Below, piece by piece: positions 42,222 to 56,029 of a DNA stretch of 64,000 nucleotides (position 1 is its first letter; each line of letters opens with the position of its first letter). A program made the translations under genes and the position numbers. The notes beneath the pieces are model-generated. The model made no database searches. It saw only the letters and a list, made by a program, of their open reading frames with translations, and was not told the DNA's origin. The DNA is from a virus: positions 25,156 to 89,155 of the IMG/VR virus record IMGVR_UViG_3300042387_000725; one strand, given 5' to 3'.

Positions 42222-42521
42222 AATAAAGATTATACCATTAAATAAAATGCTGAACACCTAGACGCAGTGGGGTGGGGTAGAATCTAGGTGCCAGCGCTCT
42301 AAATTATATATGATTATTTAAATAAAACCAGATATACAATAGTTTTATAACAAATAGTTATGTAATTAATATCGTTATAAAAGAGTTATAAAAGTATATA
42401 TAACAAATGTCCGTTTTGTCTAAATAGGCCAGAGTATTGATGGTGTATACTTAAAATATATAAAGAAAAGAAATAACTAACTAGTAAGGTTTTTAATATA
42501 TCTTATATATTATATATATAG
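42222..42521. other. Non-coding AT-rich stretch with an 8-bp hairpin
   Basis: CACCTAGA and TCTAGGTG pair near 42256-42291 around a G-rich loop. The rest is very AT-rich. One copy of AAATGTCCGTTTTGTC lies at 42405-42420, a motif otherwise found in the rightward early arm. A TATACT near 42450 has no ORF behind it. No gene is supported. Confidence 0.5.
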
Positions 42522-45479: not shown

Positions 45480-45621
45480 TGTGTGACCACCTTTCTTTTA
45501 ATGTGTTAGCGATTTGCTAACGCTTTCCTTGACCTAGGTTATTTGCTCTTATTTGCTACGCTCACCCTATTGCTAGGTTTATTTGGTAGGCTCAGAGGCT
45601 CACTAGGATTTCTTATTTAAT

Positions 45622-45662
45622 TTTATAGTAGTAATACTAGCACACATTTGGCTAAAAGTCAA
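45622..45662 (-). promoter_or_regulatory. Leftward promoter, copy 1 of a duplicated 41-bp element
   Basis: TTGACT at 45657-45662, 17-bp spacer, TAGTAT at 45634-45639. It continues to CTATAA. About 70% identical over 41 bp to the element exactly 100 bp upstream. Confidence 0.75.
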
Positions 45663-45721
45663 GCATTTAGGGGTGTGTTTCGTATCACATTTTAGGGGGT
45701 ATTTCCTAAGCACTATTTAAT

Positions 45722-45762
45722 TGTTATAGGAGTATCCTATCACATACCCTGCCAAAAGTCAA
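45722..45762 (-). promoter_or_regulatory. Leftward promoter, copy 2 of the duplicated element
   Basis: TTGACT at 45757-45762, 17-bp spacer, TAGGAT at 45734-45739, ending CTATAA. Both copies share TTGACTTTT then GC and TGTG just before the -10. Drives the same micro-protein operon. Confidence 0.75.
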
Positions 45763-45809
45763 GTCCTAGCACGGCGTGTCGCATGTGATATACACCACAC
45801 GACCCGAGG

Positions 45810-45860
45810 TTATCCACATGACGCACATCACACCCCTATTTCACGCTCAAGTTATCCACA
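45810..45860. promoter_or_regulatory. Two perfect DnaA-box sequences
   Basis: TTATCCACA at 45810-45818 and 45852-45860, each followed by a TGA-N6-TCACA half-palindrome. They lie in the divergent control region between leftward micro-proteins and the rightward arm. Confidence 0.55.
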
Positions 45861-45913
45861 TGACCTAAGTCACATTTCAAAATGTCCGTTTTGTCCTACT
45901 TACTGGCTGGTAG

Positions 45914-45936
45914 ATGTCAGACCCCCCTGTTATACT
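45914..45936 (+). promoter_or_regulatory. WTGTCA-N11-TATAAT promoter 1
   Basis: ATGTCA at 45914, 11-bp gap, TATACT at 45931; TGGTAG at the -35 position is poor. Serves the 45992 operon. AAATGTCCGTTTTGTC lies at 45880-45895. Confidence 0.7.
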
Positions 45937-45991
45937 TACAGTATCAAAAGAAAATAAAGATTTAGAAAAAAAAGAAAGGTTAGGTCTAAAA

Positions 45992-46267
45992 ATGACTAAC
46001 ACTAAAGTAAATAAGTGCAAAGATATCTCTTGCACACACTCTGCAACATTCGCAGAGCGTTGGGTTATAAACGCTAATGGTAGCGTTACCCTAAAGCATG
46101 GTCAGAAGTGGCACTTCTGCACTACATGCGACAAGGTAGTCCATAAGGACTACATTCGCCACCATGAAGTAAAATGTGCTTCATTCTATAAAATGCAAGA
46201 AAATTGCATAGCAAAAAATCACTATGGACTAGGTTTCCATAGCGAAGGTATCGCTTGCAATATGTAA
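45992..46267 (+). CDS. Zinc-binding small protein, first gene of rightward arm
   Basis: A 91-residue protein starting at ATG 45992 after AGAAAGGT; an upstream in-frame start is inside the promoter region. CKDISCTHSATF, HFCTTCDKVVHKDYIRHHEVKC and a C-terminal NCIAKNH contain many Cys/His; a C2H2-like or zinc-ribbon element is likely. Function unknown. Confidence 0.65.
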   Translation: MTNTKVNKCKDISCTHSATFAERWVINANGSVTLKHGQKWHFCTTCDKVVHKDYIRHHEVKCASFYKMQENCIAKNHYGLGFHSEGIACNM

Positions 46268-46316
46268 GCAATACTTAAAATAAAATAAAATTAACTAAAA
46301 AGAAAGGTGGTTCAAA

Positions 46317-46547
46317 ATGAACTACACACTAAACACTCTCCCAGTAGAGTATGCAAACAGAATTGTTTGCTGTTTCTGTTCAAAATATTCAACAGATGAT
46401 TTCTGTTGGAATTGCATGGAATACAAGGGCTTAATGACCCTTGCTGAATTCATGTCTATCTACTCAATAAGTGAGTGGGTTGCTGATGAAGCAGATGAAT
46501 TATCTGCTAAGTTAGATTCACTAATTGCGAAAGGAGAATATAAATAA
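46317..46547 (+). CDS. Zinc-ribbon small protein
   Basis: A 76-residue protein: IVCCFCSKYSTDDFCWNC gives CxxC...CxxC (residues ~18-34), then an acidic helical tail. AGAAAGGTGG ribosome site. Its stop overlaps the next start by 1 nt. Confidence 0.65.
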   Translation: MNYTLNTLPVEYANRIVCCFCSKYSTDDFCWNCMEYKGLMTLAEFMSIYSISEWVADEADELSAKLDSLIAKGEYK

Positions 46548-46756
46548 TGAGTATTGAAATCTTTCGCATGAACGAATCTGGCGCAGGCTGGGTTGATATT
46601 GAATCTGCAACTACTGTAGAATTGCTAGACTTAGAATTAGCAATAACATTTAATGCACCAATGCAAATGCTTTGCTTTAAATGCCATACACCAATTCCAA
46701 AAGGTAATGTGTGTGCATCACATAAAAATATTCGTGGCGCAATTTATTTTGAATAA
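46547..46756 (+). CDS. Zinc-ribbon small protein
   Basis: A 69-residue protein: LCFKCHTPIPKGNVCASH forms a CxxC...CxxH site near residues 44-61. N-terminal half is acidic. TAATG-type overlap with the previous gene. Confidence 0.65.
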   Translation: MSIEIFRMNESGAGWVDIESATTVELLDLELAITFNAPMQMLCFKCHTPIPKGNVCASHKNIRGAIYFE

Positions 46757-46792
46757 ATAATTTTTGCGATCACTGAAAAAATCCCGAGCACC

Positions 46793-46801
46793 TGTGGATA
46801 A
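46793..46801 (-). promoter_or_regulatory. DnaA-box sequence
   Basis: TGTGGATAA (TTATCCACA on the minus strand) in the 254-bp gap before the 47011 operon. The same gap holds one ACGGCGTGTC motif and CRP-like sites. Confidence 0.4.
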
Positions 46802-46884
46802 CTTTGTCAAGTTCATCTACGGCGTGTCGCAAAAAATCTTTGAAAATGACCAGATTGTGACCAGTCCATGTGACCTACATCTCA

Positions 46885-46900
46885 TGTGACCTACCTCACA
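46885..46900 (+). promoter_or_regulatory. CRP/GlxR-like box
   Basis: Exact TGTGA-N6-TCACA palindrome, with a near match directly before it (46869-46884). Centred about 70 bp upstream of the predicted start of promoter 2. Confidence 0.6.
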
Positions 46901-46932
46901 AAGTCCTAAATGTCCGTTTTATACCCCTCAAA

Positions 46933-46955
46933 ATGTCAGACCCCTCTGTTATACT
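46933..46955 (+). promoter_or_regulatory. WTGTCA-N11-TATAAT promoter 2
   Basis: ATGTCA at 46933 and TATACT at 46950. It is preceded by AAATGTCCGTTTT at 46908. Drives the six-gene cluster from 47011. Confidence 0.7.
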
Positions 46956-47010
46956 TCTATATATAGAAGGTTGAAAAAGAAGTAAACCCCTTAAAGAAAG
47001 GAAGTCCAAA

Positions 47011-47196
47011 ATGACTTCACTAAACACAATAGTATGCGATACGCATACACCTCAAATGTCCGCTGTTTCAACTGTCTGCAATATGGCATTTGATGAACAA
47101 TTTACTTTCTGCACTACATGTGAACAGAATATTGAAAGATGGGCTGATATTGATAACCCATTCTCTCCATGGTCTAAGTGGAAGGTGTCTAACTAA
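47011..47196 (+). CDS. Cys-rich small protein
   Basis: A 61-residue protein: IVCDTHTPQMS, VCNMAFDEQFTFCTTCEQN. A CxxH plus CxxC pair could bind one zinc. AGAAAGGAAG ribosome site. First of six overlapped genes. Confidence 0.6.
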   Translation: MTSLNTIVCDTHTPQMSAVSTVCNMAFDEQFTFCTTCEQNIERWADIDNPFSPWSKWKVSN

Positions 47197-47381
47197 TGAG
47201 TACACCTACACTTATTCTTTCTCATATGCCTTTAACAAAAGTTTTCTTGCGTGGCACAAAACAATTCTTGTGTTGCGAGGAAATGCAAACAGCAATTTAT
47301 TGCGATGAACATTTTCAATTTCAAGGTTGCCAATATTGCAACTTTGACCTAACTGCCTCAGAATGTGAGTGTGAAAAATAA
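47196..47381 (+). CDS. Cys-rich small protein
   Basis: A 61-residue protein: FLCCEEMQTAIYCDEHFQFQGCQYCNFDLTASECECEK. Cys pairs CDEH and CQYC suggest a zinc ribbon or B-box-like site. Overlaps both neighbours at TAATG. Confidence 0.6.
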   Translation: MSTPTLILSHMPLTKVFLRGTKQFLCCEEMQTAIYCDEHFQFQGCQYCNFDLTASECECEK

Positions 47382-47545
47382 TGAGTACACTATATGCTCT
47401 CCGTAGTATCTGCGGAAAAACAACTTCATATGTAGACGCATATGACATAAACCTAAACCCTGAAGGGTCTATCTGTTGCGATAATTGCAACTCAATTCTA
47501 ATCTGCCGTAAGGCTTGGGACTATCTCTATAAGGAGGTCAAATAA
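47381..47545 (+). CDS. Zinc-ribbon micro-protein
   Basis: A 54-residue protein starting MSTLYALRSICGKTTSYVDA. ICCDNCNSILIC near residues 31-42 is CxxC with additional Cys. TAATG coupling at both ends. Confidence 0.6.
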   Translation: MSTLYALRSICGKTTSYVDAYDINLNPEGSICCDNCNSILICRKAWDYLYKEVK

Positions 47546-47691
47546 TGACTAAATACAATGTGCTTATATCTTATGTCGTAGAGGCAGAAGATGAAATGAG
47601 AGCGGTATTCGCTCTGCAAAAATCACTCTACCCACTTAGCGAAAATGAAATTGCTAAGTTTGACGCTTTCCATGTTGAGGAGGTTCAATAA
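47545..47691 (+). CDS. 48-residue protein, ferredoxin-like fold pattern
   Basis: MTKYNVLISYVVEAEDEMRA, ending AFHVEEVQ. A beta-alpha-beta pattern reminiscent of the 55059 gene (VVEYFYEVEADNAEQAEE). AGGAGG ribosome site inside the previous gene's end. Confidence 0.55.
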   Translation: MTKYNVLISYVVEAEDEMRAVFALQKSLYPLSENEIAKFDAFHVEEVQ

Positions 47692-47789
47692 TGATAACAA
47701 TTAACTGTCGCACTTGCGATGAACCTGTTGAGTCAATGTGGCTTGATGTGAATGATGTTGTTACTTGCCCTGATTGTTGGGGTGAGTAA
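47691..47789 (+). CDS. 32-residue zinc-ribbon micro-protein
   Basis: MITINCRTCDEPVESMWLDV then NDVVTCPDCWGE. Two CxxC knuckles (6/9 and 26/29) 17 residues apart form a minimal zinc ribbon. AGGAGG ribosome site, TAATG overlaps. Confidence 0.6.
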   Translation: MITINCRTCDEPVESMWLDVNDVVTCPDCWGE

Positions 47790-47965
47790 TGACAAGCACT
47801 CAGTTGATAGATGTACTTAATACATGCCGCAAAATCCGTGGCAACAATCATGATTCAGGCACTCACTATTTGCTTGGATATCTTTGGGCAAGTTTTTCAG
47901 ATAAAGAAAAATTGCGTATTGCAAAATTATTTGAAAAAGATTTAAAAGAAATTCAAAACGAATAA
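47789..47965 (+). CDS. 58-residue helical protein
   Basis: MTSTQLIDVLNTCRKIRGNN then HDSGTHYLLGYLWASFSDKE and a basic/acidic helix. Last gene of the 47011 cluster. Function unknown. Confidence 0.55.
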   Translation: MTSTQLIDVLNTCRKIRGNNHDSGTHYLLGYLWASFSDKEKLRIAKLFEKDLKEIQNE

Positions 47966-47993
47966 AAATTCATAACACTGCATAAATATTTGG

Positions 47994-48106
47994 GGCCGAG
48001 CTGCTCGGCGCAGACGGCGTGTCGCTTTAAGACAAATGTAGTTAAGATCACAAAAAATATTTTCCCATTTTACGGCGTGTCAATTTGACAGACAAAACGG
48101 ACATTT
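47994..48106. promoter_or_regulatory. Intergenic repeats before promoter 3
   Basis: GCCGAG-ctg-CTCGGC hairpin near 47994-48009; ACGGCGTGTC at 48014 and 48072; GACAAAACGGACATTT (inverse of the AAATGTCCG motif) at 48091-48106. No gene in this 264-bp gap. Confidence 0.5.
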
Positions 48107-48110
48107 TTTG

Positions 48111-48126
48111 TGTGACCTTTATCACA
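48111..48126 (+). promoter_or_regulatory. CRP/GlxR-like box
   Basis: Exact TGTGA-N6-TCACA, centred about 83.5 bp upstream of the predicted start of promoter 3. Confidence 0.65.
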
Positions 48127-48172
48127 AATGCCACGCTCCACATAGTGAGACAAATGCCCCTAGAATTGGAAA

Positions 48173-48195
48173 ATGTCAGCCCAAAATGCTATACT
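48173..48195 (+). promoter_or_regulatory. WTGTCA-N11-TATAAT promoter 3
   Basis: ATGTCA at 48173, TATACT at 48190; upstream of the 48230 gene. Confidence 0.7.
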
Positions 48196-48229
48196 TAGAA
48201 TATAAAGAAACAGAAAAGAAGGTGACACC

Positions 48230-48442
48230 ATGTCAGCAAATGTATACACAATAAAAGACCTACTAGTAGGCACTAACTATCACTCACGCACCCTACAAGG
48301 TGAAATTGTATCAGCAGAGGAACACCCTCACGCTGTATGGTATGAGGGTTGCGAAACCTATCTAGTAGAGGTTGCCCCTAATAGCGGTTACAATAATTGG
48401 GGTCGCAAGACCTACCGCACTGTAGCGGTTCGCACCTCATAA
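48230..48442 (+). CDS. 70-residue protein, unknown
   Basis: MSANVYTIKDLLVGTNYHSR, with EGCETYLVEVAP and NNWGRKTYRTVAV; a small beta-barrel (SH3-like) is plausible. GAAGGTGA ribosome site. Monocistronic between two promoters. Confidence 0.6.
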   Translation: MSANVYTIKDLLVGTNYHSRTLQGEIVSAEEHPHAVWYEGCETYLVEVAPNSGYNNWGRKTYRTVAVRTS

Positions 48443-48443
48443 A

Positions 48444-48466
48444 ATGTCAGTGCCCCTTGCTATAAT
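48444..48466 (+). promoter_or_regulatory. WTGTCA-N11-TATAAT promoter 4
   Basis: ATGTCA at 48444, TATAAT at 48461; begins 2 nt after the previous stop codon. Drives the 48510 operon. Confidence 0.7.
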
Positions 48467-48509
48467 TAAATAATCAAACAAACAAAAAAAAGAAAGTAGG
48501 AAACTAACT

Positions 48510-48692
48510 ATGTATAAAGTTAAACTAGAGTCATTTAATGGCTCAACTAAGGAAATCTCGCTACCCTCAAAGGGTGCGGTTGCTCAATTCATCTCAACAT
48601 ACCCAACGCAATTACCTGTTGGCGTATCCGTAAAAATCGCTTGCGATACTCTTGGAATTACTGGAACACTACGAGGAAAGGCTTCTCTCTAA
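48510..48692 (+). CDS. 60-residue protein, paralog of the 44857 gene
   Basis: MYKVKLESFNGSTKEISLPS, VSVKIACDTLGITG. Shares its fold pattern with the leftward gene at 44857-45030. AGAAAGTAGG ribosome site. Confidence 0.6.
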   Translation: MYKVKLESFNGSTKEISLPSKGAVAQFISTYPTQLPVGVSVKIACDTLGITGTLRGKASL

Positions 48693-48898
48693 TGGTAAAA
48701 ATTGAACATAACTTAAAATTCGTAACTGAGGTTGATGAAACCCACCCAGTAGGCATTCGCCTGCTAGAACTACCTAATGAAATGCAGATAACATTCCTTG
48801 AAAGCATGCTAAAGGATTTGCTTGTACCATACATTAAGCCTGAAATTGACCGCATAAATGAGGGTGGCTCTTATGCAATTCTAAAGGTGGCAGAATAA
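48692..48898 (+). CDS. 68-residue protein, unknown
   Basis: Starts at ATG 48692 (MVKIEHNLKFVTEVDE) overlapping the previous stop as TAATG; an upstream in-frame start is ignored. Helical C-terminal half (MQITFLESMLKDLLVPYIKP). Function unknown. Confidence 0.6.
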   Translation: MVKIEHNLKFVTEVDETHPVGIRLLELPNEMQITFLESMLKDLLVPYIKPEIDRINEGGSYAILKVAE

Positions 48899-49068
48899 TG
48901 ATGACACGCAAAGACTATGTAGCGGTTGCAGAAATTCTATCGTCTTATAAAGATTTAATAGGTGATGAATTTACTTTTGAGGATTTGGTAGAGGATTTTT
49001 CTGCAATGTTTTCAGATGACAATGCAAACTTCAAACATGAAAAATTTAGAGAGGCGTGTATGAAATGA
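48898..49068 (+). CDS. 56-residue acidic protein
   Basis: MMTRKDYVAVAEILSSYKDL then GDEFTFEDLVEDFSAMFSDD. Helical and acidic, with a terminal NFKHEKFREAC. Overlaps both neighbours. Function unknown. Confidence 0.55.
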   Translation: MMTRKDYVAVAEILSSYKDLIGDEFTFEDLVEDFSAMFSDDNANFKHEKFREACMK

Positions 49069-49190
49069 ATCGCTTACTAACTTCACTGGTGCAATTATTT
49101 TTAGCAGGTAGCGTAATTATTTTATTTCGCATGATGTTGCCAATGCTAAAAGAAGATTGGCAAGAAATAAAAAACGATTTGCGAAAGTAA
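49065..49190 (+). CDS. Small membrane protein (41 aa)
   Basis: MNRLLTSLVQLFLAGSVIIL then FRMMLPMLKEDWQEIKNDLRK. One transmembrane segment (residues ~4-22) and a charged cytoplasmic helix. ATGA overlap with the upstream gene. Confidence 0.55.
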   Translation: MNRLLTSLVQLFLAGSVIILFRMMLPMLKEDWQEIKNDLRK

Positions 49191-49200
49191 ATCATGATCC

Positions 49201-49223
49201 TGAGCAAGATATAAAACTGCTCA
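49201..49223 (+). ncRNA. Conserved hairpin family member 1
   Basis: TGAGCA, an 11-nt loop ending AAAAC, TGCTCA. CC precedes the stem. Same geometry as four other copies; not followed by a T-run. GGGCCGAGG follows at 49229. Confidence 0.6.
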
Positions 49224-49239
49224 ATTTTGGGCCGAGGCG

Positions 49240-49260
49240 TTTTCCACAGGTTTATCCACA
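49240..49260 (+). promoter_or_regulatory. DnaA-box pair
   Basis: TTTTCCACA (one mismatch) at 49240-49248 and perfect TTATCCACA at 49252-49260, direct repeats 12 bp apart. A degenerate CRP-like box follows at 49271-49286. Confidence 0.45.
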
Positions 49261-49324
49261 GGCTATTAAGTGTGATTAAAAACACACCCCCAAAATCCCT
49301 GAAACTAGGGTTAAGAAGTTGAGT

Positions 49325-49347
49325 TTGTCACCCCCATAGTGTAGGAT
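49325..49347 (+). promoter_or_regulatory. WTGTCA-N11-TATAAT promoter 5
   Basis: TTGTCA at 49325, TAGGAT at 49342; TTGAGT in the true -35 position. Drives the 49384 operon. Confidence 0.65.
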
Positions 49348-49383
49348 ATTTATATCAAGTTAATTAAAGAAAGAAGGCTCACC

Positions 49384-49530
49384 ATGACCTATACATGTAT
49401 GCAGTGTAATGAAAATGCAGTAGATGTAACTGAACTCTATTGCTTCCGTTGCTATCTTGACCGTGAGGTAGAAGCGATGATAGAGTATGACTATATCAAT
49501 TCACTATTCACCACTCAGGAGGCTAAGTAA
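49384..49530 (+). CDS. 48-residue zinc-ribbon protein
   Basis: MTYTCMQCNENAVDVTELYC then FRCYLDREVEAMIEYDYINS. CxxC at 5/8 and 20/23 form a zinc ribbon, followed by an acidic helix. AGAAGG ribosome site. Confidence 0.6.
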   Translation: MTYTCMQCNENAVDVTELYCFRCYLDREVEAMIEYDYINSLFTTQEAK

Positions 49531-49634
49531 TGAACTACTATGACGACTACTATGAAAATCCAGAACCTGTATATGCAGGTTGCTATTGCAAACTAAACTA
49601 TCTATGCTCAGAATGTAAAGGAAGTTATAACTAA
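49530..49634 (+). CDS. 34-residue Cys-rich protein
   Basis: MNYYDDYYENPEPVYAGCYC then KLNYLCSECKGSYN. Cys 18, 20, 26 and 29 form a compact metal site. TAATG overlaps on both sides. Confidence 0.55.
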   Translation: MNYYDDYYENPEPVYAGCYCKLNYLCSECKGSYN

Positions 49635-49849
49635 TGGAATACTTATACTCAGTAACTTGCACATATGACGGAGACCGCTCACCTCATTGGGTTGGTCGTT
49701 TTGATAACGCTATTGACGCAGTTAATTCATGGAATAAATTTGTTGATTGGGGCATGGCTCAGGAATATTCAACAGTTAATTTCTCAGAGCCTTCAGGCAA
49801 AATGCACACCAAAATCTTTTATCGCAACGGAAATGTAGGGGGTAAGTAA
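49634..49849 (+). CDS. 71-residue protein, unknown
   Basis: MEYLYSVTCTYDGDRSPHWV, then GRFDNAIDAVNSWNKFVDWG and a beta hairpin. A beta-alpha-beta pattern. Function unknown. Confidence 0.6.
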   Translation: MEYLYSVTCTYDGDRSPHWVGRFDNAIDAVNSWNKFVDWGMAQEYSTVNFSEPSGKMHTKIFYRNGNVGGK

Positions 49850-49850
49850 T

Positions 49851-50189
49851 ATGGGTTCAGTTACAGCACTAGGAATTCAGGATACAGTCTTGGACTTGGA
49901 GACTCAGATTCTCTATCACCTTAAAGGTAATCACTATCCACCTGTACCCGCAGAAATGGTAGCGCCATGCATTGAAGCCATTGACGCATACTACGATGAG
50001 GACTATGACCGCATGATTGACATGCCAAAGGTTGGTGACTTTCAGATTCTCTACAAGAATTCAACAGTTGCACCTGCATGGGCTATCGTAGAGCAACACC
50101 ACCTTCAGACTTTCATTGACTCAGTAGATGATTGGCAAGATGGGTCAGACGACTTCCCACTCTCACTAGAATATGATGAGGGGGAATAA
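49851..50189 (+). CDS. 112-residue protein, unknown
   Basis: MGSVTALGIQDTVLDLETQI, HYPPVPAEMVAPCIEAIDAYYDEDYDRMIDMP and a C-terminal acidic stretch. Mostly helical. Proximity suggests coupling to the previous gene (AGGGGGTAAGT ribosome site). Confidence 0.6.
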   Translation: MGSVTALGIQDTVLDLETQILYHLKGNHYPPVPAEMVAPCIEAIDAYYDEDYDRMIDMPKVGDFQILYKNSTVAPAWAIVEQHHLQTFIDSVDDWQDGSDDFPLSLEYDEGE

Positions 50190-50190
50190 A

Positions 50191-50433
50191 ATGAGTGCTA
50201 CAATAAAGAATATGGAACTAGTATGGGCAGATAAATTAACGCCAGGGTCACTGATGGAAGGTGACTTAATTAAAGTTGATGGCGATCTAATTGAAGTTAT
50301 TAGCATTAATTCTGATTCAACAGGTGATAACTATTTTATTGAATATGCTGATCCATATGGCGAACAAGATACATTAACAATTTTATATGACACATATGTT
50401 GATTTATATGTGTATGTAGATTTAGACGATTAG
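50191..50433 (+). CDS. 80-residue beta-barrel-like protein
   Basis: Starts at ATG 50191 (MSATIKNMELVWADKLTPGS) after GAGGGGGAA. LMEGDLIKVDGDLIEVISI resembles an SH3/KOW barrel. Acidic C-terminus. Last gene of the operon. Confidence 0.6.
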   Translation: MSATIKNMELVWADKLTPGSLMEGDLIKVDGDLIEVISINSDSTGDNYFIEYADPYGEQDTLTILYDTYVDLYVYVDLDD

Positions 50434-50452
50434 CAGTTGGGCTCGGGGGCCC

Positions 50453-50468
50453 TGTGAGATTCATCACA
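50453..50468 (+). promoter_or_regulatory. CRP/GlxR-like box
   Basis: Exact TGTGA-N6-TCACA, centred about 54.5 bp upstream of the predicted start of the 50515 gene. A GGGC-tcgggg-GCCC hairpin lies just before it. Confidence 0.6.
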
Positions 50469-50479
50469 ATTAAGAGGAT

Positions 50480-50508
50480 TTGATATTTTTCCCAATTCTT
50501 GCTAAAAT
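50480..50508 (+). promoter_or_regulatory. Sigma70-like promoter, leaderless
   Basis: TTGATA, 17-bp spacer, TAAAAT, then 6 nt to the ATG at 50515. Confidence 0.65.
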
Positions 50509-50514
50509 TATTAC

Positions 50515-50664
50515 ATGAAAAAAACACCAGAGGAATTAAGGCGACTAATGGAGCTTCGCCGTTCTAATGCTGCCTCTGCAGTCCCCAACAAAAAGAAATA
50601 TGACAGAAAGAAATGTCAGTCCCAAATGCTAAAATTAATAAAAGAAAGAGGCCACCATGACTAA
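50515..50664 (+). CDS. 49-residue basic protein
   Basis: MKKTPEELRRLMELRRSNAA then SAVPNKKKYDRKKCQSQMLK. Helical and strongly basic: may bind nucleic acid. Leaderless start. It overlaps the GP88 start by 8 nt and contains the next promoter inside its reading frame. Confidence 0.55.
   Translation: MKKTPEELRRLMELRRSNAASAVPNKKKYDRKKCQSQMLKLIKERGHHD
50613..50635 (+). promoter_or_regulatory. WTGTCA-N11-TATAAT promoter 6
   Basis: ATGTCA at 50613, TAAAAT at 50630, inside the 49-aa gene; drives the GP88-like gene. Confidence 0.65.
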
Positions 50665-51379
50665 ACTACTACGCTCTAAAGATAGAAAAGTTGCAAACCT
50701 TGTAACACCTAACGGTAAGCAAGCAAGCATTGCTAATACATTTGGATTACCTGCAGGCAAGGCATACTCATGTCCTGGTGCTACTAGCGTATGCGAAAGT
50801 GTATGCTATGCAGGTAAGTTAGAAAAAGTATTCCCAACAGTTAAAGTTAATCTATTGCATAACTGGAATCTACTTAAAGACGCAGACTATGAAACCATGG
50901 TAGCGCTACTTAAAGAAATGATAGTAGATTTTATTAAAGATTGTGCAAAGAAAGACGCACCATTGCTATTCCGTATCCATTGGGACGGAGATTTCTTTAA
51001 CGATACCTACGCATATGCATGGAAGCAAGTAATCATGGATTATCGCCATGTACAGTTCTGGGTATATACACGTGTAGAGACAGCAGCGGTAATGCTTAAA
51101 GACCAACCTAATCTATCTTTATATTATTCTACAGATAGTGAGAATAAGGCTACAGGTATTGCACTTAAAAATGATCATGACATATCCCTTGCATACCTTG
51201 CAAAAAATTTCTTAACAGGGCAAGCAGACATGAAAGAATTAACAGGCAAGCCTGGTGCTAAATGTCCTGAGAATAAAAAAGCAATTCCACTTATCTCACA
51301 ACAGGGCTCTGCGTGTGCAACCTGCAAATTGTGTATTTATGAGAAGTCTGATATAGTATTTAGCGCAACCAAAAAGTAA
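50657..51379 (+). CDS. GP88-like phage protein
   Basis: A 240-residue protein of the gene-product-88 family. KQASIANTFGLPAGKAYSCPGATSVCESVCYAG carries the family Cys motif, HWDGDFFNDTYAYAW is the central block, and CATCKLCIY near the C-terminus adds two Cys. Such Cys arrangements suggest an iron-sulfur or zinc site. The family occurs in actinophages and other bacterial viruses; its biochemical role is unclear. AGAAAGAGG ribosome site. Confidence 0.75.
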   Translation: MTKLLRSKDRKVANLVTPNGKQASIANTFGLPAGKAYSCPGATSVCESVCYAGKLEKVFPTVKVNLLHNWNLLKDADYETMVALLKEMIVDFIKDCAKKDAPLLFRIHWDGDFFNDTYAYAWKQVIMDYRHVQFWVYTRVETAAVMLKDQPNLSLYYSTDSENKATGIALKNDHDISLAYLAKNFLTGQADMKELTGKPGAKCPENKKAIPLISQQGSACATCKLCIYEKSDIVFSATKK

Positions 51380-51388
51380 GGGCTACTT

Positions 51389-51454
51389 ATGGAATATCTA
51401 ATACTAGTTATCCTATTATTCATAATCCTACTGGCGGGTATGGGGCATGAGTGA
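51389..51454 (+). CDS. 21-residue membrane peptide
   Basis: Reads MEYLILVILLFIILLAGMGH followed by E. Entirely hydrophobic after the start. It lies 10 nt after the GP88-like gene in the same transcript. GGG-CTACTT spacer could act as a weak ribosome site. Confidence 0.4.
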   Translation: MEYLILVILLFIILLAGMGHE

Positions 51455-51465
51455 CCTATATCACA
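51450..51465 (+). promoter_or_regulatory. CRP/GlxR-like box (one mismatch)
   Basis: AGTGA-N6-TCACA, centred about 84.5 bp upstream of the predicted start of promoter 7. Confidence 0.5.
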
Positions 51466-51512
51466 CCAAAAATGTCTCAAAATATGAGATTTTTAGGGTT
51501 TGGATTTGATAA

Positions 51513-51535
51513 ATGTCAGAGCATAAATGTATAAT
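51513..51535 (+). promoter_or_regulatory. WTGTCA-N11-TATAAT promoter 7
   Basis: ATGTCA at 51513, TATAAT at 51530; TTGATA lies 18 bp upstream of the -10, so a classical -35 is also present. Confidence 0.7.
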
Positions 51536-51573
51536 ATAAATATAAGCAAAACCAACTACAAAGGAGAAACACA

Positions 51574-51738
51574 ATGTCAGTAGCAACATCAACATACAAG
51601 GTAGGCGACACTTTCACCACACAGAAGTCAAAGGTCACAGGAACTATTGAGGAAATTATCCCTCAGCCAAATGGTAATGTGCGTGTGAAGTTAATGGTAG
51701 ATGGAAAGCCACGCTATACAACTTGGACAGCCAAGTAA
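51574..51738 (+). CDS. 54-residue KOW/SH3-like protein
   Basis: MSVATSTYKVGDTFTTQKSK then VTGTIEEIIPQPNGNVRVKL and a beta strand to WTAK. Beta-barrel pattern resembling a small SH3-like or RNA-binding fold. AAAGGAGA ribosome site. Confidence 0.6.
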   Translation: MSVATSTYKVGDTFTTQKSKVTGTIEEIIPQPNGNVRVKLMVDGKPRYTTWTAK

Positions 51739-51739
51739 G

Positions 51740-51831
51740 TTTGGCAATAACGCCAAAAAACACACGCCCCACAGAAATGCGTGTCTAAATAAATAGAGTG
51801 GGACAACCTGAGCAAGTTGTCAAAAGGCTCA
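51740..51831 (+). other. Non-coding gap with three hairpins
   Basis: TTTGGC/GCCAAA near 51740-51757; ACACGC/GCGTGT (51762-51767, 51779-51784); and TGAGC/GCTCA (51809-51813, 51827-51831), the last a looser relative of the conserved hairpin family. Confidence 0.5.
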
Positions 51832-51836
51832 CCATA

Positions 51837-51859
51837 ATGTCAGTACCACCCCCTATAAT
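51837..51859 (+). promoter_or_regulatory. WTGTCA-N11-TATAAT promoter 8
   Basis: ATGTCA at 51837, TATAAT at 51854; drives the 51895 gene. Confidence 0.7.
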
Positions 51860-51894
51860 AGAAATATCAACCACCAAAGAAAAGAGAGCAACAA

Positions 51895-52320
51895 ATGGCA
51901 ACAAGAGGAAAAGCAATCTCAGTAAAAATCGCAACAACAAAGGTAATCAACGCACTAGAAGGCGCACTCGCTAAACTAGAACTTGACTACACAACACAAG
52001 AAGCCAACGAAGCAAAGCATGAAATTGCTCGCAAGGCTTGGCAGAACGAACTTATTGCTTATGCTACTAAGCATATTGCAAATGCAGAAAACTTCCGCAC
52101 ATCATATCGTTCATGGAACAATCAACTCAACATTGACTTTGACCTAACAGTTTCAGAGTCAGAGTTGCCAGCGCAACCTGAAAAGGACTTCATCACAATG
52201 AGCCAATACGAATACAAGGAAAAGCGTGAGGAACTCTCAAACGCAATTCGTATTCTCAAAATGACAGATGAGGAAGTTGTAAATACTTCCACATACAATG
52301 CGGTGGCTCGCTACCTATAA
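51895..52320 (+). CDS. 141-residue helical protein, unknown
   Basis: MATRGKAISVKIATTKVINA, then a coiled-coil-like EGALAKLELDYTTQEANEAK stretch, a YRSWNNQLNIDF beta element and KEKREELSNAIRILKMTDEE at the end. Strong GAGAG-type ribosome site. No family recognised. Confidence 0.65.
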   Translation: MATRGKAISVKIATTKVINALEGALAKLELDYTTQEANEAKHEIARKAWQNELIAYATKHIANAENFRTSYRSWNNQLNIDFDLTVSESELPAQPEKDFITMSQYEYKEKREELSNAIRILKMTDEEVVNTSTYNAVARYL

Positions 52321-52560
52321 AACTTAGGGGGGCAACTTAAAGTCCTGAACCCTAACGACCTAAGTAAGTCGCAAAACTGCTTAACAGAGTTACTGCCAGT
52401 GCTATAGCGAGGCAAGTGCATTCCTGAGTAAGAATTAAAACTGCTCAACTTCGCCAGGCTGATTAGGGCGATAATAGAAATACTATAGAGCAAGGGTACT
52501 GCAGCCCTAAAGAAGCAGACATCCTGAGTATGATCCAAAACTGCTCACCAATATTTATTC
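52321..52560 (+). ncRNA. Non-coding block with three conserved hairpins
   Basis: No ORF fits. Hairpins at 52361-52383 (TAAGTA/TGCTTA), 52425-52447 (TGAGTA/TGCTCA) and 52525-52547 (TGAGTA/TGCTCA), all with 11-nt loops ending AAAAC. The region also holds AGGGCTGCAG-like inverted stretches. Candidate structured 3' UTR or small RNA. Confidence 0.45.
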
Positions 52561-52593
52561 AGCTGATTGCATAAGTATGCGGGGCCGAGATAA

Positions 52594-52609
52594 TGTGAGA
52601 TTAATCACA
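52594..52609 (+). promoter_or_regulatory. CRP/GlxR-like box
   Basis: Exact TGTGA-N6-TCACA, centred about 83.5 bp upstream of the predicted start of promoter 9; GGGGCCGAG precedes it. Confidence 0.65.
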
Positions 52610-52655
52610 CCCATTAAGTCTCACTATTTAAGATTCCTGGAATTACGTCTTGCAT

Positions 52656-52678
52656 TTGTCAGTGGCCATTGCTAGAAT
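52656..52678 (+). promoter_or_regulatory. WTGTCA-N11-TATAAT promoter 9
   Basis: TTGTCA at 52656, TAGAAT at 52673; TTGCAT in the -35 position. Confidence 0.65.
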
Positions 52679-52709
52679 TATATTATTAACTAAACAGAAA
52701 GAGGCCCCC

Positions 52710-53171
52710 ATGGACCACGAAAAGCCAACACTAACAAACGAATACTACATGACAAGAGAATTTCTTGAGCGACAGATTGCTGCACTAACAGAGTCAATTG
52801 AGAAAAAGGATGCATTGATTATTTCATTGCAGGACCGTTCATCAGAACATTCATCAACTCTTCTTACAGAGCGCCGTGCACATCTAGCAACTATGAATTC
52901 AATTAAAGAATATGTAGTTGAATCAGTCCGTAATGGAGAAATGAATCATTCAGTTGCAGAAGCGCTTGCTGAGATTTGTGAGTTTGAATTAACTAAGACT
53001 GTAACTGTTACTGCAACAGTTGAGTTTGAAGTTGAACTAGAGGTGCCATTTGAAGTAGATGCAGAAGAAGTTGCTAACACTCTTGAATTCAGTGTTGACT
53101 CATTTGATTATTCAATTGATGACTTCAGCGTTGATACCCGCTCAATTCAAGCAGAGGATAATATTTCATAG
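52710..53171 (+). CDS. 153-residue coiled-coil plus beta protein, unknown
   Basis: Starts at ATG 52710 after AGAAAGAGG; an upstream in-frame start lies within the promoter. Residues 12-80 form a coiled coil (REFLERQIAALTESIEKKDA). Residues 100-150 are a strongly acidic beta region (TVTVTATVEFEVELEVPFEV). Function unknown. Confidence 0.65.
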   Translation: MDHEKPTLTNEYYMTREFLERQIAALTESIEKKDALIISLQDRSSEHSSTLLTERRAHLATMNSIKEYVVESVRNGEMNHSVAEALAEICEFELTKTVTVTATVEFEVELEVPFEVDAEEVANTLEFSVDSFDYSIDDFSVDTRSIQAEDNIS

Positions 53172-53306
53172 GGGGCTATGAGATAAGACCTACCGCATGT
53201 CTTTAAACTAGGTTAGCGGACCTGAGCATTGTCCACGTAAACGGCTCACTTTTTATTGCAAAAAAAATCTCGGGGGCAAAAACTTTCATTTGTCAAATTA
53301 AGAGGG

Positions 53307-53322
53307 TATGATTAAGATCACA
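53307..53322 (+). promoter_or_regulatory. CRP/GlxR-like box (two mismatches in left arm)
   Basis: TATGA-N6-TCACA, centred about 82.5 bp upstream of the predicted start of promoter 10. AAATGTCCGATTTA follows at 53327. Confidence 0.4.
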
Positions 53323-53367
53323 GAAAAAATGTCCGATTTATGCCTATTTAACTATCCTGATTTGCAT

Positions 53368-53390
53368 TTGTCAGTCCATGGGTGTATAGT
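53368..53390 (+). promoter_or_regulatory. WTGTCA-N11-TATAAT promoter 10
   Basis: TTGTCA at 53368, TATAGT at 53385; TTGCAT in the -35 position. Drives the DUF932-like gene. Confidence 0.65.
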
Positions 53391-53422
53391 TATCTTATCA
53401 ACAACAAAAAGGAGAAACACTC

Positions 53423-54445
53423 ATGGCACATGACCTAGAAACACAAAACGGCAAGACATCTTTTGCATCTTTCCGTGAACCTGCATGGCATGGATTGGGT
53501 ACTGTATTCACAGAAGAAAAAACAACCGCAGAAATGCTAGAGGCTGCAAGCCTTAATGGTTGGAATGTTCGTCTTGAGGATATGCCAATTCCATCACATC
53601 TTACAAGCGACAAGGCATATCAGTATGTCCTACGCACTAACCCTACAGATAACACACAGACAGATGTTCTTGGTGTTGTAGGTGAGCGTTATCATGTATT
53701 GCAAAATGAAGATTTATTTTCATTTGGTGATAATATTCTTGACGGCGGTGGTCGTTGGGAAACCGCTGGCGCTATCAAGGGTGGGCGTGTAGTATTTGGC
53801 TCACTTGCACTAGAGCGTGAGACAGTTCTTGACCCTAGCGGTGTTGCAGATAAGGTAAAGACTTATTTGCTCATCAACACATCACACGATGGTTCTATCG
53901 CAATTCAAGCAAGCATTACACCTGTTCGTGTAGTGTGCGCTAACACTCTTAACCTTGCGCTAGGTGGCGTAGGTCGTAAGAAAAATAAGGGTATCAAGCA
54001 ATCATTCAAGATTCGCCATACTCAGACCGCTAATGGCAAGGTGCAAATTGCTCGTGAGACTCTTGGTCTTGCTAATGCGTACATGGACGAATTTGATATC
54101 ATGGCTAAGGCTATGTTTGAGAAGGAAGTCAATGCTAAGCAATTCAATGACATCATTCTTGCTGCTTACCCTAAGCCTGAAAAGGATTCTAAGGGTGCGT
54201 TCAAGAAGTGGGAAAACAAGGTAGATGTTATTAACGATATCTACACTGGCGAATTTAATGGCATGATTGCTGGCTCTGCATGGGGCGCTTTCAATGCACT
54301 TACAGAACGCCTTGATTGGTATCGCACTGCAAGAGGTGGTTCTAACGAATCTATCCTTGCAAGCGCAAGTGGTTTTGACCCTGCAATTAACGCAGAGAAA
54401 AATCGTTTGCTAAAAGTTGTGCAGAATGTAATGTCAATCGCATAA
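53423..54445 (+). CDS. DUF932 (phage/plasmid-like) protein
   Basis: A 340-residue protein matching the TIGR03299/DUF932 pattern: SFREPAWHGLGTVF at the N-terminus, VVGERYHVLQNEDLFSFGDNIL, GGRVVFGSLAL, LLINTSHDGSIAIQASITPVRVVCANTLN and KIRHTQTANGKVQIARETLG. The family is common in phages and plasmids; its function is not firmly established, though DNA-related roles have been suggested. GGAGAAA ribosome site. Ends just before a conserved hairpin and a tRNA. Confidence 0.85.
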   Translation: MAHDLETQNGKTSFASFREPAWHGLGTVFTEEKTTAEMLEAASLNGWNVRLEDMPIPSHLTSDKAYQYVLRTNPTDNTQTDVLGVVGERYHVLQNEDLFSFGDNILDGGGRWETAGAIKGGRVVFGSLALERETVLDPSGVADKVKTYLLINTSHDGSIAIQASITPVRVVCANTLNLALGGVGRKKNKGIKQSFKIRHTQTANGKVQIARETLGLANAYMDEFDIMAKAMFEKEVNAKQFNDIILAAYPKPEKDSKGAFKKWENKVDVINDIYTGEFNGMIAGSAWGAFNALTERLDWYRTARGGSNESILASASGFDPAINAEKNRLLKVVQNVMSIA

Positions 54446-54456
54446 CAAAAAAATCC

Positions 54457-54479
54457 TGAGCAAGATTTAAAACTGCTCA
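54457..54479 (+). ncRNA. Conserved hairpin family member 5
   Basis: TGAGCA, 11-nt loop ending AAAAC, TGCTCA, preceded by TCC. It lies between the DUF932 stop and the tRNA-Asp, separated from the latter by 4 nt. Confidence 0.6.
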
Positions 54480-54483
54480 CCAG

Positions 54484-54557
54484 GATCTCATAGCTCAATT
54501 GGTTAGAGCGCTACCCTGTCACGGTAGAGGTTGCGAGTTCAAGTCTCGTTGGGATCG
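54484..54557 (+). tRNA. tRNA-Asp (GTC)
   Basis: Acceptor GATCTCA/TGGGATC, D-stem GCTC/GAGC, anticodon stem CTACC/GGTAG with loop CTGTCAC (GTC), T-arm with TTCAAGT. CCA is not encoded. It sits alone in the early arm, 9 kb from the main tRNA cluster. Confidence 0.93.
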
Positions 54558-54661
54558 CAAAAGTTGGGCTCGGGATTTTTCTAAACTAAACAATTTAATG
54601 TCAAACCTTATTAAGATGAAATGACATTTTTCCCTGAAATTCTATTAAGAGGGACTTGAAT

Positions 54662-54684
54662 TTGTCACCGTTCTTGGCTATAAT
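54662..54684 (+). promoter_or_regulatory. WTGTCA-N11-TATAAT promoter 11, leaderless
   Basis: TTGTCA at 54662, TATAAT at 54679, TTGAAT in the -35 position; ATG follows 6 nt after the -10 box. Confidence 0.7.
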
Positions 54685-54690
54685 TAATAT

Positions 54691-54852
54691 ATGACTACAC
54701 CATACAGCCCATATACCATAAACGAACTCGTAAATGCTATTTATGAGGATAACCTATCGCACTTTGAATTTGAGGAGAACATGGGTGGAGAACCCTGTGA
54801 CTGCCACCTACATATTACCATGGAAACTATTGTCAAGTATTGGGGAGAGTAA
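54691..54852 (+). CDS. 53-residue acidic protein
   Basis: MTTPYSPYTINELVNAIYED, ENMGGEPCDCHLHITMETI. Has CDCHLH, a possible metal site. Leaderless start. Overlaps the next gene by TAATG. Confidence 0.6.
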   Translation: MTTPYSPYTINELVNAIYEDNLSHFEFEENMGGEPCDCHLHITMETIVKYWGE

Positions 54853-55010
54853 TGTTAGGTTATACTAAAACAGATCTAGATGAGATGACTAATGCTATTG
54901 ATTCTGCTATGACTACCGTCAATCCTGACGATGACCCTTGGCTACATTCAAGACTGTTTATGGCCAGGGATTTCTTAGATGGCCTATGGGCAGAAGGCTA
55001 CTTTGACTAA
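54852..55010 (+). CDS. 52-residue acidic protein
   Basis: MLGYTKTDLDEMTNAIDSAM then NPDDDPWLHSRLFMARDFLD. Helical. Its last codon overlaps the next promoter. Function unknown. Confidence 0.6.
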   Translation: MLGYTKTDLDEMTNAIDSAMTTVNPDDDPWLHSRLFMARDFLDGLWAEGYFD

Positions 55011-55032
55011 TGTCAGTGGCTACCTCTATAAT
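55010..55032 (+). promoter_or_regulatory. WTGTCA-N11-TATAAT promoter 12
   Basis: ATGTCA at 55010, TATAAT at 55027; TTGACT lies 18 bp upstream of the -10. Drives the 55059 cluster. Confidence 0.7.
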
Positions 55033-55058
55033 TAATACATACACCAAAGGAGAAATAA

Positions 55059-55238
55059 ATGGCAACATTTGATATCAAAGTAGTAGTAGAGTATTTCTAC
55101 GAAGTAGAAGCAGATAACGCAGAACAAGCAGAAGAACTAGGCTGGCACTATGAGGACTATGCTTTCTCAGGTGAGGTTTATTCTATTGATGTAACTCAGA
55201 CCTCTGAAGATGATGAGGATGAAGAAGATGACAACTAA
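55059..55238 (+). CDS. 59-residue acidic protein
   Basis: MATFDIKVVVEYFYEVEADN then AEQAEELGWHYEDYAFSGEV and a poly-acidic end. Similar pattern to the 47545 product. AAAGGAGA ribosome site. Confidence 0.6.
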   Translation: MATFDIKVVVEYFYEVEADNAEQAEELGWHYEDYAFSGEVYSIDVTQTSEDDEDEEDDN

Positions 55239-55326
55239 TGTAGTTTATGTTCCTTACTGTGGGGATTGTGACGCACAGTTAATTGATATGCCGTCATTTA
55301 TTGAAGGGCACAACTGCGATGAATGA
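55228..55326 (+). CDS. 32-residue zinc-binding micro-protein
   Basis: MTTNVVYVPYCGDCDAQLID then MPSFIEGHNCDE. C11/C14 plus H28/C30 could form a zinc site. It overlaps its upstream neighbour by 11 nt and the next gene by 8 nt. Confidence 0.5.
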   Translation: MTTNVVYVPYCGDCDAQLIDMPSFIEGHNCDE

Positions 55327-55498
55327 GTTCATTGAATATATAAAGATACATATCATTAGCCTAGAGCAAGACCTAGAGGCTGCACAGAATCATGAGCCTT
55401 TGGCTGAGGATGAGTACGATGAATCAGATGATTACTTATATGGTTCCATTGAGACAGCCAAACACCTTTTGTCAGTGGCAGAGGGTATGATTAAATAA
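55319..55498 (+). CDS. 59-residue acidic helical protein
   Basis: Starts at ATG 55319 (MNEFIEYIKIHIISLEQDLE). Upstream in-frame starts are inside the previous gene. Function unknown. Confidence 0.6.
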   Translation: MNEFIEYIKIHIISLEQDLEAAQNHEPLAEDEYDESDDYLYGSIETAKHLLSVAEGMIK

Positions 55499-55782
55499 TG
55501 GAAACAACACAACTAGAACCAAGACTACAAAAACTGGTTGACCTAGGTGAATCAGGCACAGATATCCTACATGGAGAACTAAAGAATATGATGTATGAGT
55601 GCGAGAAGATTCTTGTACCCCTACTAGAAAACTCTAATGAGTTAGGCTCTGATGAAGAGTATGACGACACAGTTGAGCGTTTATATAATGAAGGATATAT
55701 GGACGCTTTGACTTCAGTATATGCTTTAACATATCAGTTAGCATTTGCTATTAACGATAGGAGACAAAATGGGAATGCGTGA
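55498..55782 (+). CDS. 94-residue acidic helical protein
   Basis: METTQLEPRLQKLVDLGESG, CEKILVPLLENSNELGSDEE and a C-terminal helix. TAATG overlap with the previous gene. Function unknown. Confidence 0.6.
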   Translation: METTQLEPRLQKLVDLGESGTDILHGELKNMMYECEKILVPLLENSNELGSDEEYDDTVERLYNEGYMDALTSVYALTYQLAFAINDRRQNGNA

Positions 55783-56029
55783 TGAGTCATGGTGTAACTC
55801 TTGTGGCTGTTCTATTCCATACACAGAGGAAGAAGACTACAATGCCTACTGTGGAGAGTGTGCCTCTATATCTGTTATAGATGACCTCCGTGCTTTTGTA
55901 GAGGGTCGTATCAAAGAGCTAACAGAATTGCGTGAGAAGTATCAGGCAGAGGGCGATCATGAACTAGATGATTACTCAGCAGGGGCTATTGACGCATACG
56001 ATATTGTCCGTATGAAGTTGACAGATTAA
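55769..56029 (+). CDS. 86-residue zinc-ribbon protein
   Basis: Starts at ATG 55769 (MGMRDESWCNSCGCSIPYTE) after AGGAG; the upstream in-frame start is rejected. CNSCGC and YCGEC (residues ~9-37) form a zinc ribbon, followed by a helical tail. The promoter for the next gene is inside its 3' end. Confidence 0.65.
   Translation: MGMRDESWCNSCGCSIPYTEEEDYNAYCGECASISVIDDLRAFVEGRIKELTELREKYQAEGDHELDDYSAGAIDAYDIVRMKLTD

Follow-up and report, generated by a model that had tools for sequence, protein, structure and literature searches.

A phage promoter array that probably belongs to the PafBC (RecA-NDp) class of its presumed actinobacterial host

Which protein reads a promoter whose conserved hexamer stands at a fixed 11 bp above the -10 box? 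The question is raised by a 64,000-base stretch of viral DNA with 36.8% G+C (bases 25156-89155 of the 89,155-base virus record IMGVR_UViG_3300042387_000725, hereafter the window), in which a first-pass annotation had described twelve WTGTCA hexamers, each followed at this distance by a TATAAT-like box, as a phage-specific promoter element, perhaps read by a phage-encoded activator or a modified RNA polymerase. The comparisons presented here argue with good confidence that the array consists of phage promoters of the PafBC (RecA-NDp) class that depend on the host, often in combination with its regulator CRP; a freshwater actinobacteriophage would thereby probably use the alarm of its own host to turn on the genes concerned.

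All twelve sites are present where they had been placed and the gap between WTGTCA and TAnnnT is exactly 11 bp in each, the -10 boxes being TATAAT in five, TATACT in three and TAGGAT, TAAAAT, TAGAAT and TATAGT in one each. As had been noticed, the hexamer is mostly followed by G (10 of 12), with C at 49325 and 54662. On the + strand of positions 45500-56000, 14 of the 21 WTGTCA hexamers have a TAnnnT at spacing 11, and the spacing withstands comparison with 2000 dinucleotide shuffles of that segment, which give a mean of 0.16 and a maximum of 3 such pairs at 11 bp and never more than 3 at any spacing from 0 to 30. Shuffles lead one to expect 0.10 copies of the exact form WTGTCA-N11-TATAAT in the window, which has five. 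Scanned at spacings 0-30, the whole window holds 14 + strand and 2 - strand pairs at 11 bp, with 0-4 pairs at the other spacings except for 10 at 17 bp. This second peak (6 of them in 45500-56000) was considered as a -35/-10 spacing and rejected, since it is caused by a second AT-rich TAnnnT lying 6 bp below the -10 box. The additional site at 55469 was accepted as a thirteenth promoter on its matrix score of 29.3 and an open reading frame (ORF) that begins at the predicted +1, and the match at 53290 was discarded, its score being 12.3 and its TATGAT being the left half of a CRP-like site at 53307. The thirteen promoters (11 with TGTCAG and 2 with TGTCAC) score 23.5-37.7 on a 38-bp matrix made from sites of relatives, and the maximum elsewhere in the 89 kb record is 13.7. 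At the true -35 position, 17 bp above the -10 box, the hexamer matches TTGACA at only 0-4 of six positions, in line with the poor -35 described before. Most of the genes served are small ORFs in a rightward region of early type; a gene of the gp88 family and one of the DUF932 family are also among them.

Relatives were collected with the gp88-family protein encoded at 50657 as query, which returned at least 80 viral loci; many of these loci are near copies, and counts over the 80 are not independent. On the gene strand they contain 630 WTGTCA-N11-TAnnnT pairs, with 58 on the opposite strand, and the other spacings on the gene strand occur 3-89 times, apart from a secondary peak of 191 at 17 bp. 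For a consensus, the sites upstream of gp88 were left out by pattern because they overlap a conserved mini-ORF, which gave 521 sites, or 161 once redundancy was removed, reading (t)gcAw-W-TGTC-R-G-t-s-s...TGn-TAtaaT-t. The base after TGTC, restricted to A or G by the search pattern, is A in 0.91 and G in 0.09 of these 161 sites, and the next base is G in 0.89; TTGTCG itself is enriched at spacing 11 in the relatives (26 against 1.7). A scan of a viral collection with WTGTCAGTG-N8-TATAAT found at least 120 stretches, several of which carry 2-7 matches, and the N9 control found 64 stretches with one match each. A megablast search of the promoter region against phages gave no match. Among 671 sites of relatives, an ATG stands at offset +29 from the W in 34 and at offsets 28, 30 and 31 in none, as would be expected if transcription began seven bases downstream of the -10 box and yielded leaderless messages, the arrangement also seen in the host pattern described below. 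Two of the window promoters (54662 and 55469) are of this leaderless kind, and if the start of a leaderless ORF is taken as +1, WTGTCA occupies -29 to -24. The earlier proposal is supported in so far as this is a promoter element centred near -26/-27, of the kind that is read by an activator re-targeting RNA polymerase.

PafBC, a WYL-type activator, is known as the main DNA-damage activator of mycobacteria, and the phage sites agree with its promoters in sequence and spacing. DNA-damage promoters independent of LexA and RecA are reported to follow the consensus tTGTCRgtg-8 nt-TAnnnT (PMC5656591), and PafBC sites of Mycobacterium tuberculosis to consist of TGTCGG, TGTCAG or TGTCAC followed by N10-TA-N3-T (PMC8151990). 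PafB reads this -26 element, PafC contacts domain 4 of sigma-A and single-stranded DNA activates the complex (PMC11804915); PafBC works via RecA-NDp, and the promoter type extends to other actinobacteria (PMC6789036, PMC8223512). All 13 window sites carry TGTC(A/G)G or TGTCAC as the -26 element, the 10 bp between TGTCRG and TAnnnT are the same distance as 11 bp counted from WTGTCA, and the -35 box is weak or absent. The likeness to the PafBC promoters (RecA-NDp, P1) known from mycobacteria and further actinobacteria thus takes in the tTGTCRgtg-N8-TAnnnT pattern, the sigma-A type -10 box and even the TGTCAC variant, whereas the phage array differs in preceding small early-type genes rather than DNA-repair genes, in commonly having A at the first position and in the frequent addition of a CRP-type site. 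The suggestion that the element is phage-specific is not supported, since both its sequence and its spacing are those published for PafBC/RecA-NDp promoters and since genomes of an actinobacterial order have the same element before their own genes.

That order was reached through gp88. Its relatives in the phage collection comprise 371 records (270 Mycobacterium, 99 Streptomyces, 1 Fromanvirus and 1 Synechococcus), and their concentration in Mycobacterium and Streptomyces phage records makes an actinobacterial host likely. Among genome contigs gp88 was found in three, from metagenome-assembled genomes (MAGs) of mixed taxonomy (actinobacterial, cyanobacterial and Phycisphaerae bins), and the host order was sampled via the phage-bearing contig in the one actinobacterial MAG; judging from its compact, low-G+C genomes the order appears to be the Nanopelagicales. 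Phages of Nanopelagicales have been described, and WhiB and sigma-70 genes are reported in two isolates (PMC10202952). In this order, a plausible host group, WYL genes occur in all 101 genomes sampled, commonly as two adjacent ORFs; one adjacent pair, with a predicted methyltransferase gene beside it, was matched to PafB (E 9e-47) and PafC (7.5e-25) of known structure, and an RMFERDK stretch is identical in the presumed host, M. smegmatis and A. aurescens. The strict element pattern has 22 matches in 21 of the 101 genomes against 2 in the control, and 142 of the 296 genomes searched in the order carry the leaderless pattern TGTCRGTG-N8-TAnnnT-N6-ATG, with one match for the reversed control. 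The 30 leaderless loci that were read include radA (1), recR (1), a DEDD exonuclease (3), DUF3263 (1), a cytosine methyltransferase and, in about 20 cases, a small conserved Cys-rich protein, so that radA, recR and the exonuclease place the element at host DNA-repair genes, as in known PafBC promoters. Before DUF3263, the element is kept in five genomes despite differing flanks. The small protein, beginning MIIDC(D/E)xC (L404, about 20 of the loci L399-L428), is the commonest gene behind the leaderless PafBC-type promoter of the host, and the copy tested has no Pfam or NCBIfam match.

A second putative host signal lies upstream. At seven of the 13 promoters, a palindrome of the CRP/GlxR type (TGTGA-N6-TCACA, at most two mismatches) stands 40-56 bp above the element, a feature absent from the first-pass annotation. 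Palindromes with 0-1 mismatch number ten in the window (4 exact and 6 with one mismatch), all of them within 45.6-53.4 kb and none in the rest of the window. In the 80 relatives TGTGA-N6-TCACA occurs 400 times and the other 19 gap lengths 0-8 times, and for 92 of 167 non-redundant palindromes an 11-bp element lies no more than 150 bp away on the same strand. Counting both strands over the same distance places 94 of 165 palindromes near an 11-bp element, 13 near a weak one and 24 near a TTGAC-type promoter, with 34 near none of these; the corresponding numbers for 400 random places are 54, 8, 20 and 318. The distances between palindrome and element cluster near 35, 45, 55 and 70-74 bp, while a second set shows clusters near 25, 35, 45, 55 and 66-77 bp; Rayleigh tests of this phasing give 3.6e-12 (84 sites, period 10) and 3.5e-17 (75 loci, period 10.5), values that overstate the case because the sites are related by descent. 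The second set consists of 75 of 80 listed motif loci, since five were on contigs already used for the first set and were removed, and some overlap may remain. The CRP (Rv3676) and GlxR promoters of actinobacteria likewise combine TGTGA-N6-TCACA and a TA-rich centre with upstream positions in steps of about 10 bp, but at the phage sites the palindrome accompanies a -26 element, which takes the place of a -35 box or stands next to one. No cyclic nucleotide-binding protein is encoded in any of 26 phage records, and the one host genome that was read whole (G012, 1.24 Mb) encodes a CRP matching that of M. tuberculosis at E 2e-78.

Taken together with the published mechanism, the helix-turn-helix domain of PafB would read WTGTCA-G as the -26 element while PafC would hold domain 4 of sigma-A, and the housekeeping RNA polymerase would then start at TAnnnT without a good -35 box, a sigma adaptation that has been shown in mycobacteria. 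Because single-stranded DNA activates PafBC, the phage genes should come on when entry of the phage DNA, its replication or damage to the host genome exposes such DNA. A host regulator of the CRP/GlxR type may in addition contact RNA polymerase from upstream in a class I-like manner, and the steps of about one helical turn in the palindromes of relatives are as expected for such a contact. The comparisons themselves establish the sequence of the element, where it stands, how far it is conserved and which genes are present or absent, and the regulation described is inferred from them.

Several observations weigh against a host-read array. The host assignment is indirect, the two other MAG matches of gp88 being cyanobacterial and Phycisphaerae bins. 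G012 shows no genome-wide enrichment of the element, and a matrix scan found no site in front of its recA, recN, ruvC, ruvB and uvrD (the signatures used did not recover lexA, uvrA, uvrB, radA and polA), which suggests that the host regulon is small or that more degenerate sites are read. The same genome has no exact TGTGA-N6-TCACA, and GTGA-N6-TCAC is rarer there than the other gaps (5 against 13-29). In the cultured Streptomyces phage Jay2Jay, which is among the closest DUF932 matches, no 11-bp enrichment was found in the 50 kb scanned. Orthologs of the gene at 55059 mainly have a different kind of promoter, an exchange between relatives: 12 of the 15 have a CRP-type palindrome without the 11-bp element, and in most of those inspected a TTG-type hexamer stands some 17 bp above TATAAT or TATACT, where this phage has TGTCAGTG. 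Lastly, WhiB scores above cut-off in 22 of the 25 long relatives that were used for protein profile searches.

The WhiB finding leads to the chief rival, in which a phage-encoded activator, either the WhiB-like protein of the relatives or a small MotA-like protein, reads the -26 element. WhiB also works through sigma-A, and the phage record (89 kb, with relatives of up to 116 kb) is probably incomplete, so that its own WhiB could be missing from it. The middle promoters of T4, where a MotA/AsiA activator box near -30 replaces the -35 box beside a sigma-70 -10 box, have a similar layout, although the sequence of that box differs and the reader in the present case is most likely a host protein. 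Against a phage activator stand the identity of the element with the host PafBC element in sequence and spacing, its presence before the host's own repair genes, and the record itself, which has no WhiB beyond a sub-threshold WhiB-like stretch of 22 residues inside a longer ORF. Furthermore, no 11-bp element lies within 300 bp of the two whiB loci of relatives that were properly scored; at the eight whiB loci read in relatives the upstream sequence looks like coding sequence. The WhiB proteins of the relatives (L391-L398 and 14 more) fall into two length classes, with open frames of about 94-100 and 131-144 residues. WYL proteins are found neither in the record nor in any of the 25 long relatives, and the same is true of sigma-70 region 4 above cut-off (nine relatives have sub-threshold matches). 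The first-pass idea of a phage-encoded activator persists through WhiB and perhaps through a small protein of another family. On these presence and absence counts PafBC is the most economical reader, and a phage activator is unlikely.

Less probable again, to the point of being hard to credit, are plain sigma-A promoters of the extended -10 type (TGnTATAAT) that are activated by CRP alone, with WTGTCA as a spacer preference that has no protein of its own. The extended -10 bases are indeed frequent (T in 61% and G in 69% of non-redundant sites) and CRP sites in relatives also stand above TTGnnn-N17 promoters, yet WTGTCA-G and the -10 box are conserved to a similar degree and at an invariant distance (WTGTC and the spacing being fixed by the search pattern, the 11-bp peak not), and a CRP-like site at 40-56 bp is missing from six of the 13 window promoters. 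A repressor-type operator overlapping the promoters, comparable to the stoperators of L5-like phages, which contain TGTCAAG, would account for many copies near gene starts on one strand of one genome but is the most improbable of all, since the element stands at a fixed 11 bp from the -10 box, TGTCA is followed by G in 89% rather than by A and nothing outside the promoters scores above 13.7.

Beyond the PafBC assignment itself, a broader scheme can be put forward tentatively, namely that a lineage of freshwater actinophages runs its early region via both PafBC, as a sensor of single-stranded DNA, and CRP/GlxR, as a sensor of nutritional state, with promoters that would open once phage DNA lies exposed in a metabolically suitable cell and with -26 and -35 types exchanging before the same gene. 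The element is of a known kind in a new place, where it is probably combined with a second host regulator; a literature search, judged from its listings and with preprints and most subscription papers outside its scope, found no report of phages using PafBC. If the assignment is true, many uncultured freshwater actinophages would turn the host alarm into an infection switch, the element would predict damage-inducible phage genes and serve as a sequence signature for actinobacterial hosts, and the host's own PafBC regulon would become visible in a largely uncultured order.

Table 1. Predicted promoters and CRP/GlxR-type palindromes in the window (score: 38-bp matrix; orthologs: those with the element at N11; distances run from palindrome centre to element).
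Feature	Sequence or type	Position	Strand	Gene or element concerned	Score	Orthologs
-26 element + -10	ATGTCAG..TATACT	45914..45936	+	ORF 45992-46267	34.6	no ortholog in relatives set
-26 element + -10	ATGTCAG..TATACT	46933..46955	+	ORF 47011-47196	31.1	34/41
-26 element + -10	ATGTCAG..TATACT	48173..48195	+	ORF 48230-48442	34.6	63/71
-26 element + -10	ATGTCAGTG..TATAAT	48444..48466	+	ORF 48510-48692	33.3	54/74
-26 element + -10	TGTCAC variant, TAGGAT	49325..49347	+	ORF 49384-49530	23.5	12/17
-26 element + -10	ATGTCAG..TAAAAT	50613..50635	+	before gp88-family gene 50657-51379	29.4	66/80, partly coding
-26 element + -10	ATGTCAG..TATAAT	51513..51535	+	ORF 51574-51738	24.0	46/79
-26 element + -10	ATGTCAGT..TATAAT	51837..51859	+	ORF 51895-52320	27.7	37/78
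-26 element + -10	TTGTCAGTG..TAGAAT	52656..52678	+	ORF 52710-53171	37.7	34/38
-26 element + -10	TTGTCAG..TATAGT	53368..53390	+	DUF932 gene 53423-54445	25.6	70/73
-26 element + -10	TGTCAC variant, TATAAT	54662..54684	+	leaderless, ATG 54691 at predicted +1	26.8	7/46, all 7 leaderless
-26 element + -10	ATGTCAGTG..TATAAT	55010..55032	+	ORF 55059-55238	27.0	1/15
-26 element + -10, 13th site, absent from first-pass annotation	TTGTCAGTG..TATGAT	55469..55491	+	leaderless, ATG 55498 at predicted +1	29.3	19/42
CRP/GlxR-like palindrome	2 mismatches	45859..45874	+	47 bp above 45914		
Two CRP/GlxR-like palindromes	1 and 0 mismatches	46869..46900	+	56 and 40 bp above 46933		
CRP/GlxR-type palindrome	TGTGACCTTTATCACA	48111..48126	+	54 bp above 48173		
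CRP/GlxR-like palindrome	1 mismatch	49271..49286	+	46 bp above 49325		
CRP/GlxR-type palindrome	0 mismatches	50453..50468	+	above conventional TTGATA-N17-TAAAAT promoter of mini-ORF 50515		
CRP/GlxR-like palindrome	1 mismatch	51450..51465	+	55 bp above 51513		
CRP/GlxR-type palindrome	0 mismatches	52594..52609	+	54 bp above 52656		
CRP/GlxR-like palindrome	1 mismatch	53307..53322	+	53 bp above 53368		

Among the promoters of Table 1, the site at 50613 is the weakest case, since it overlaps the 3' end of the conserved mini-ORF that starts at 50515 and its conservation may be partly coding. This mini-ORF (50515-50659), just before the gp88 gene, has a CRP palindrome and a TTGATA-N17-TAAAAT promoter of its own, with the start codon at the predicted +1.

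The intergenic stretches contain further repeats. An intergenic repeat CCTGAGCAAGAT-TAAAACTGCTCA with GAGCA/TGCTC arms is present in five to six copies (49198, 51806, 52359, 52422, 52522 and 54454), parts of it are enriched upstream of promoters in relatives, and it is perhaps a processing or termination hairpin. AAATGTCCG is repeated at 42405, 45880, 46908, 47054 and 53327, with its complement at 48098, and is a possible third operator; in relatives, ATGTCCG is contained in 38 of the 161 regions that lie above the element, where 6.2 would be expected. GCGTGTC recurs at 45774, 46822, 48017, 48075 and 51779 and is likewise enriched upstream of the element in relatives. G012 contains far fewer TTG(A/C)nn pairs with TAnnnT at N17 (180) than at the other spacings (311-568), a marked depletion that looks like a purging of promoters arisen by chance. 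Finally, virus record G000 encodes RecA, a B12-dependent ribonucleotide reductase and the alpha subunit of DNA polymerase III, and the 2OG-Fe(II) oxygenase family PF13640 is unusually expanded in the phage record, where it accounts for 10 of the 131 ORFs that were scanned (7 of 75 and 3 of 56).

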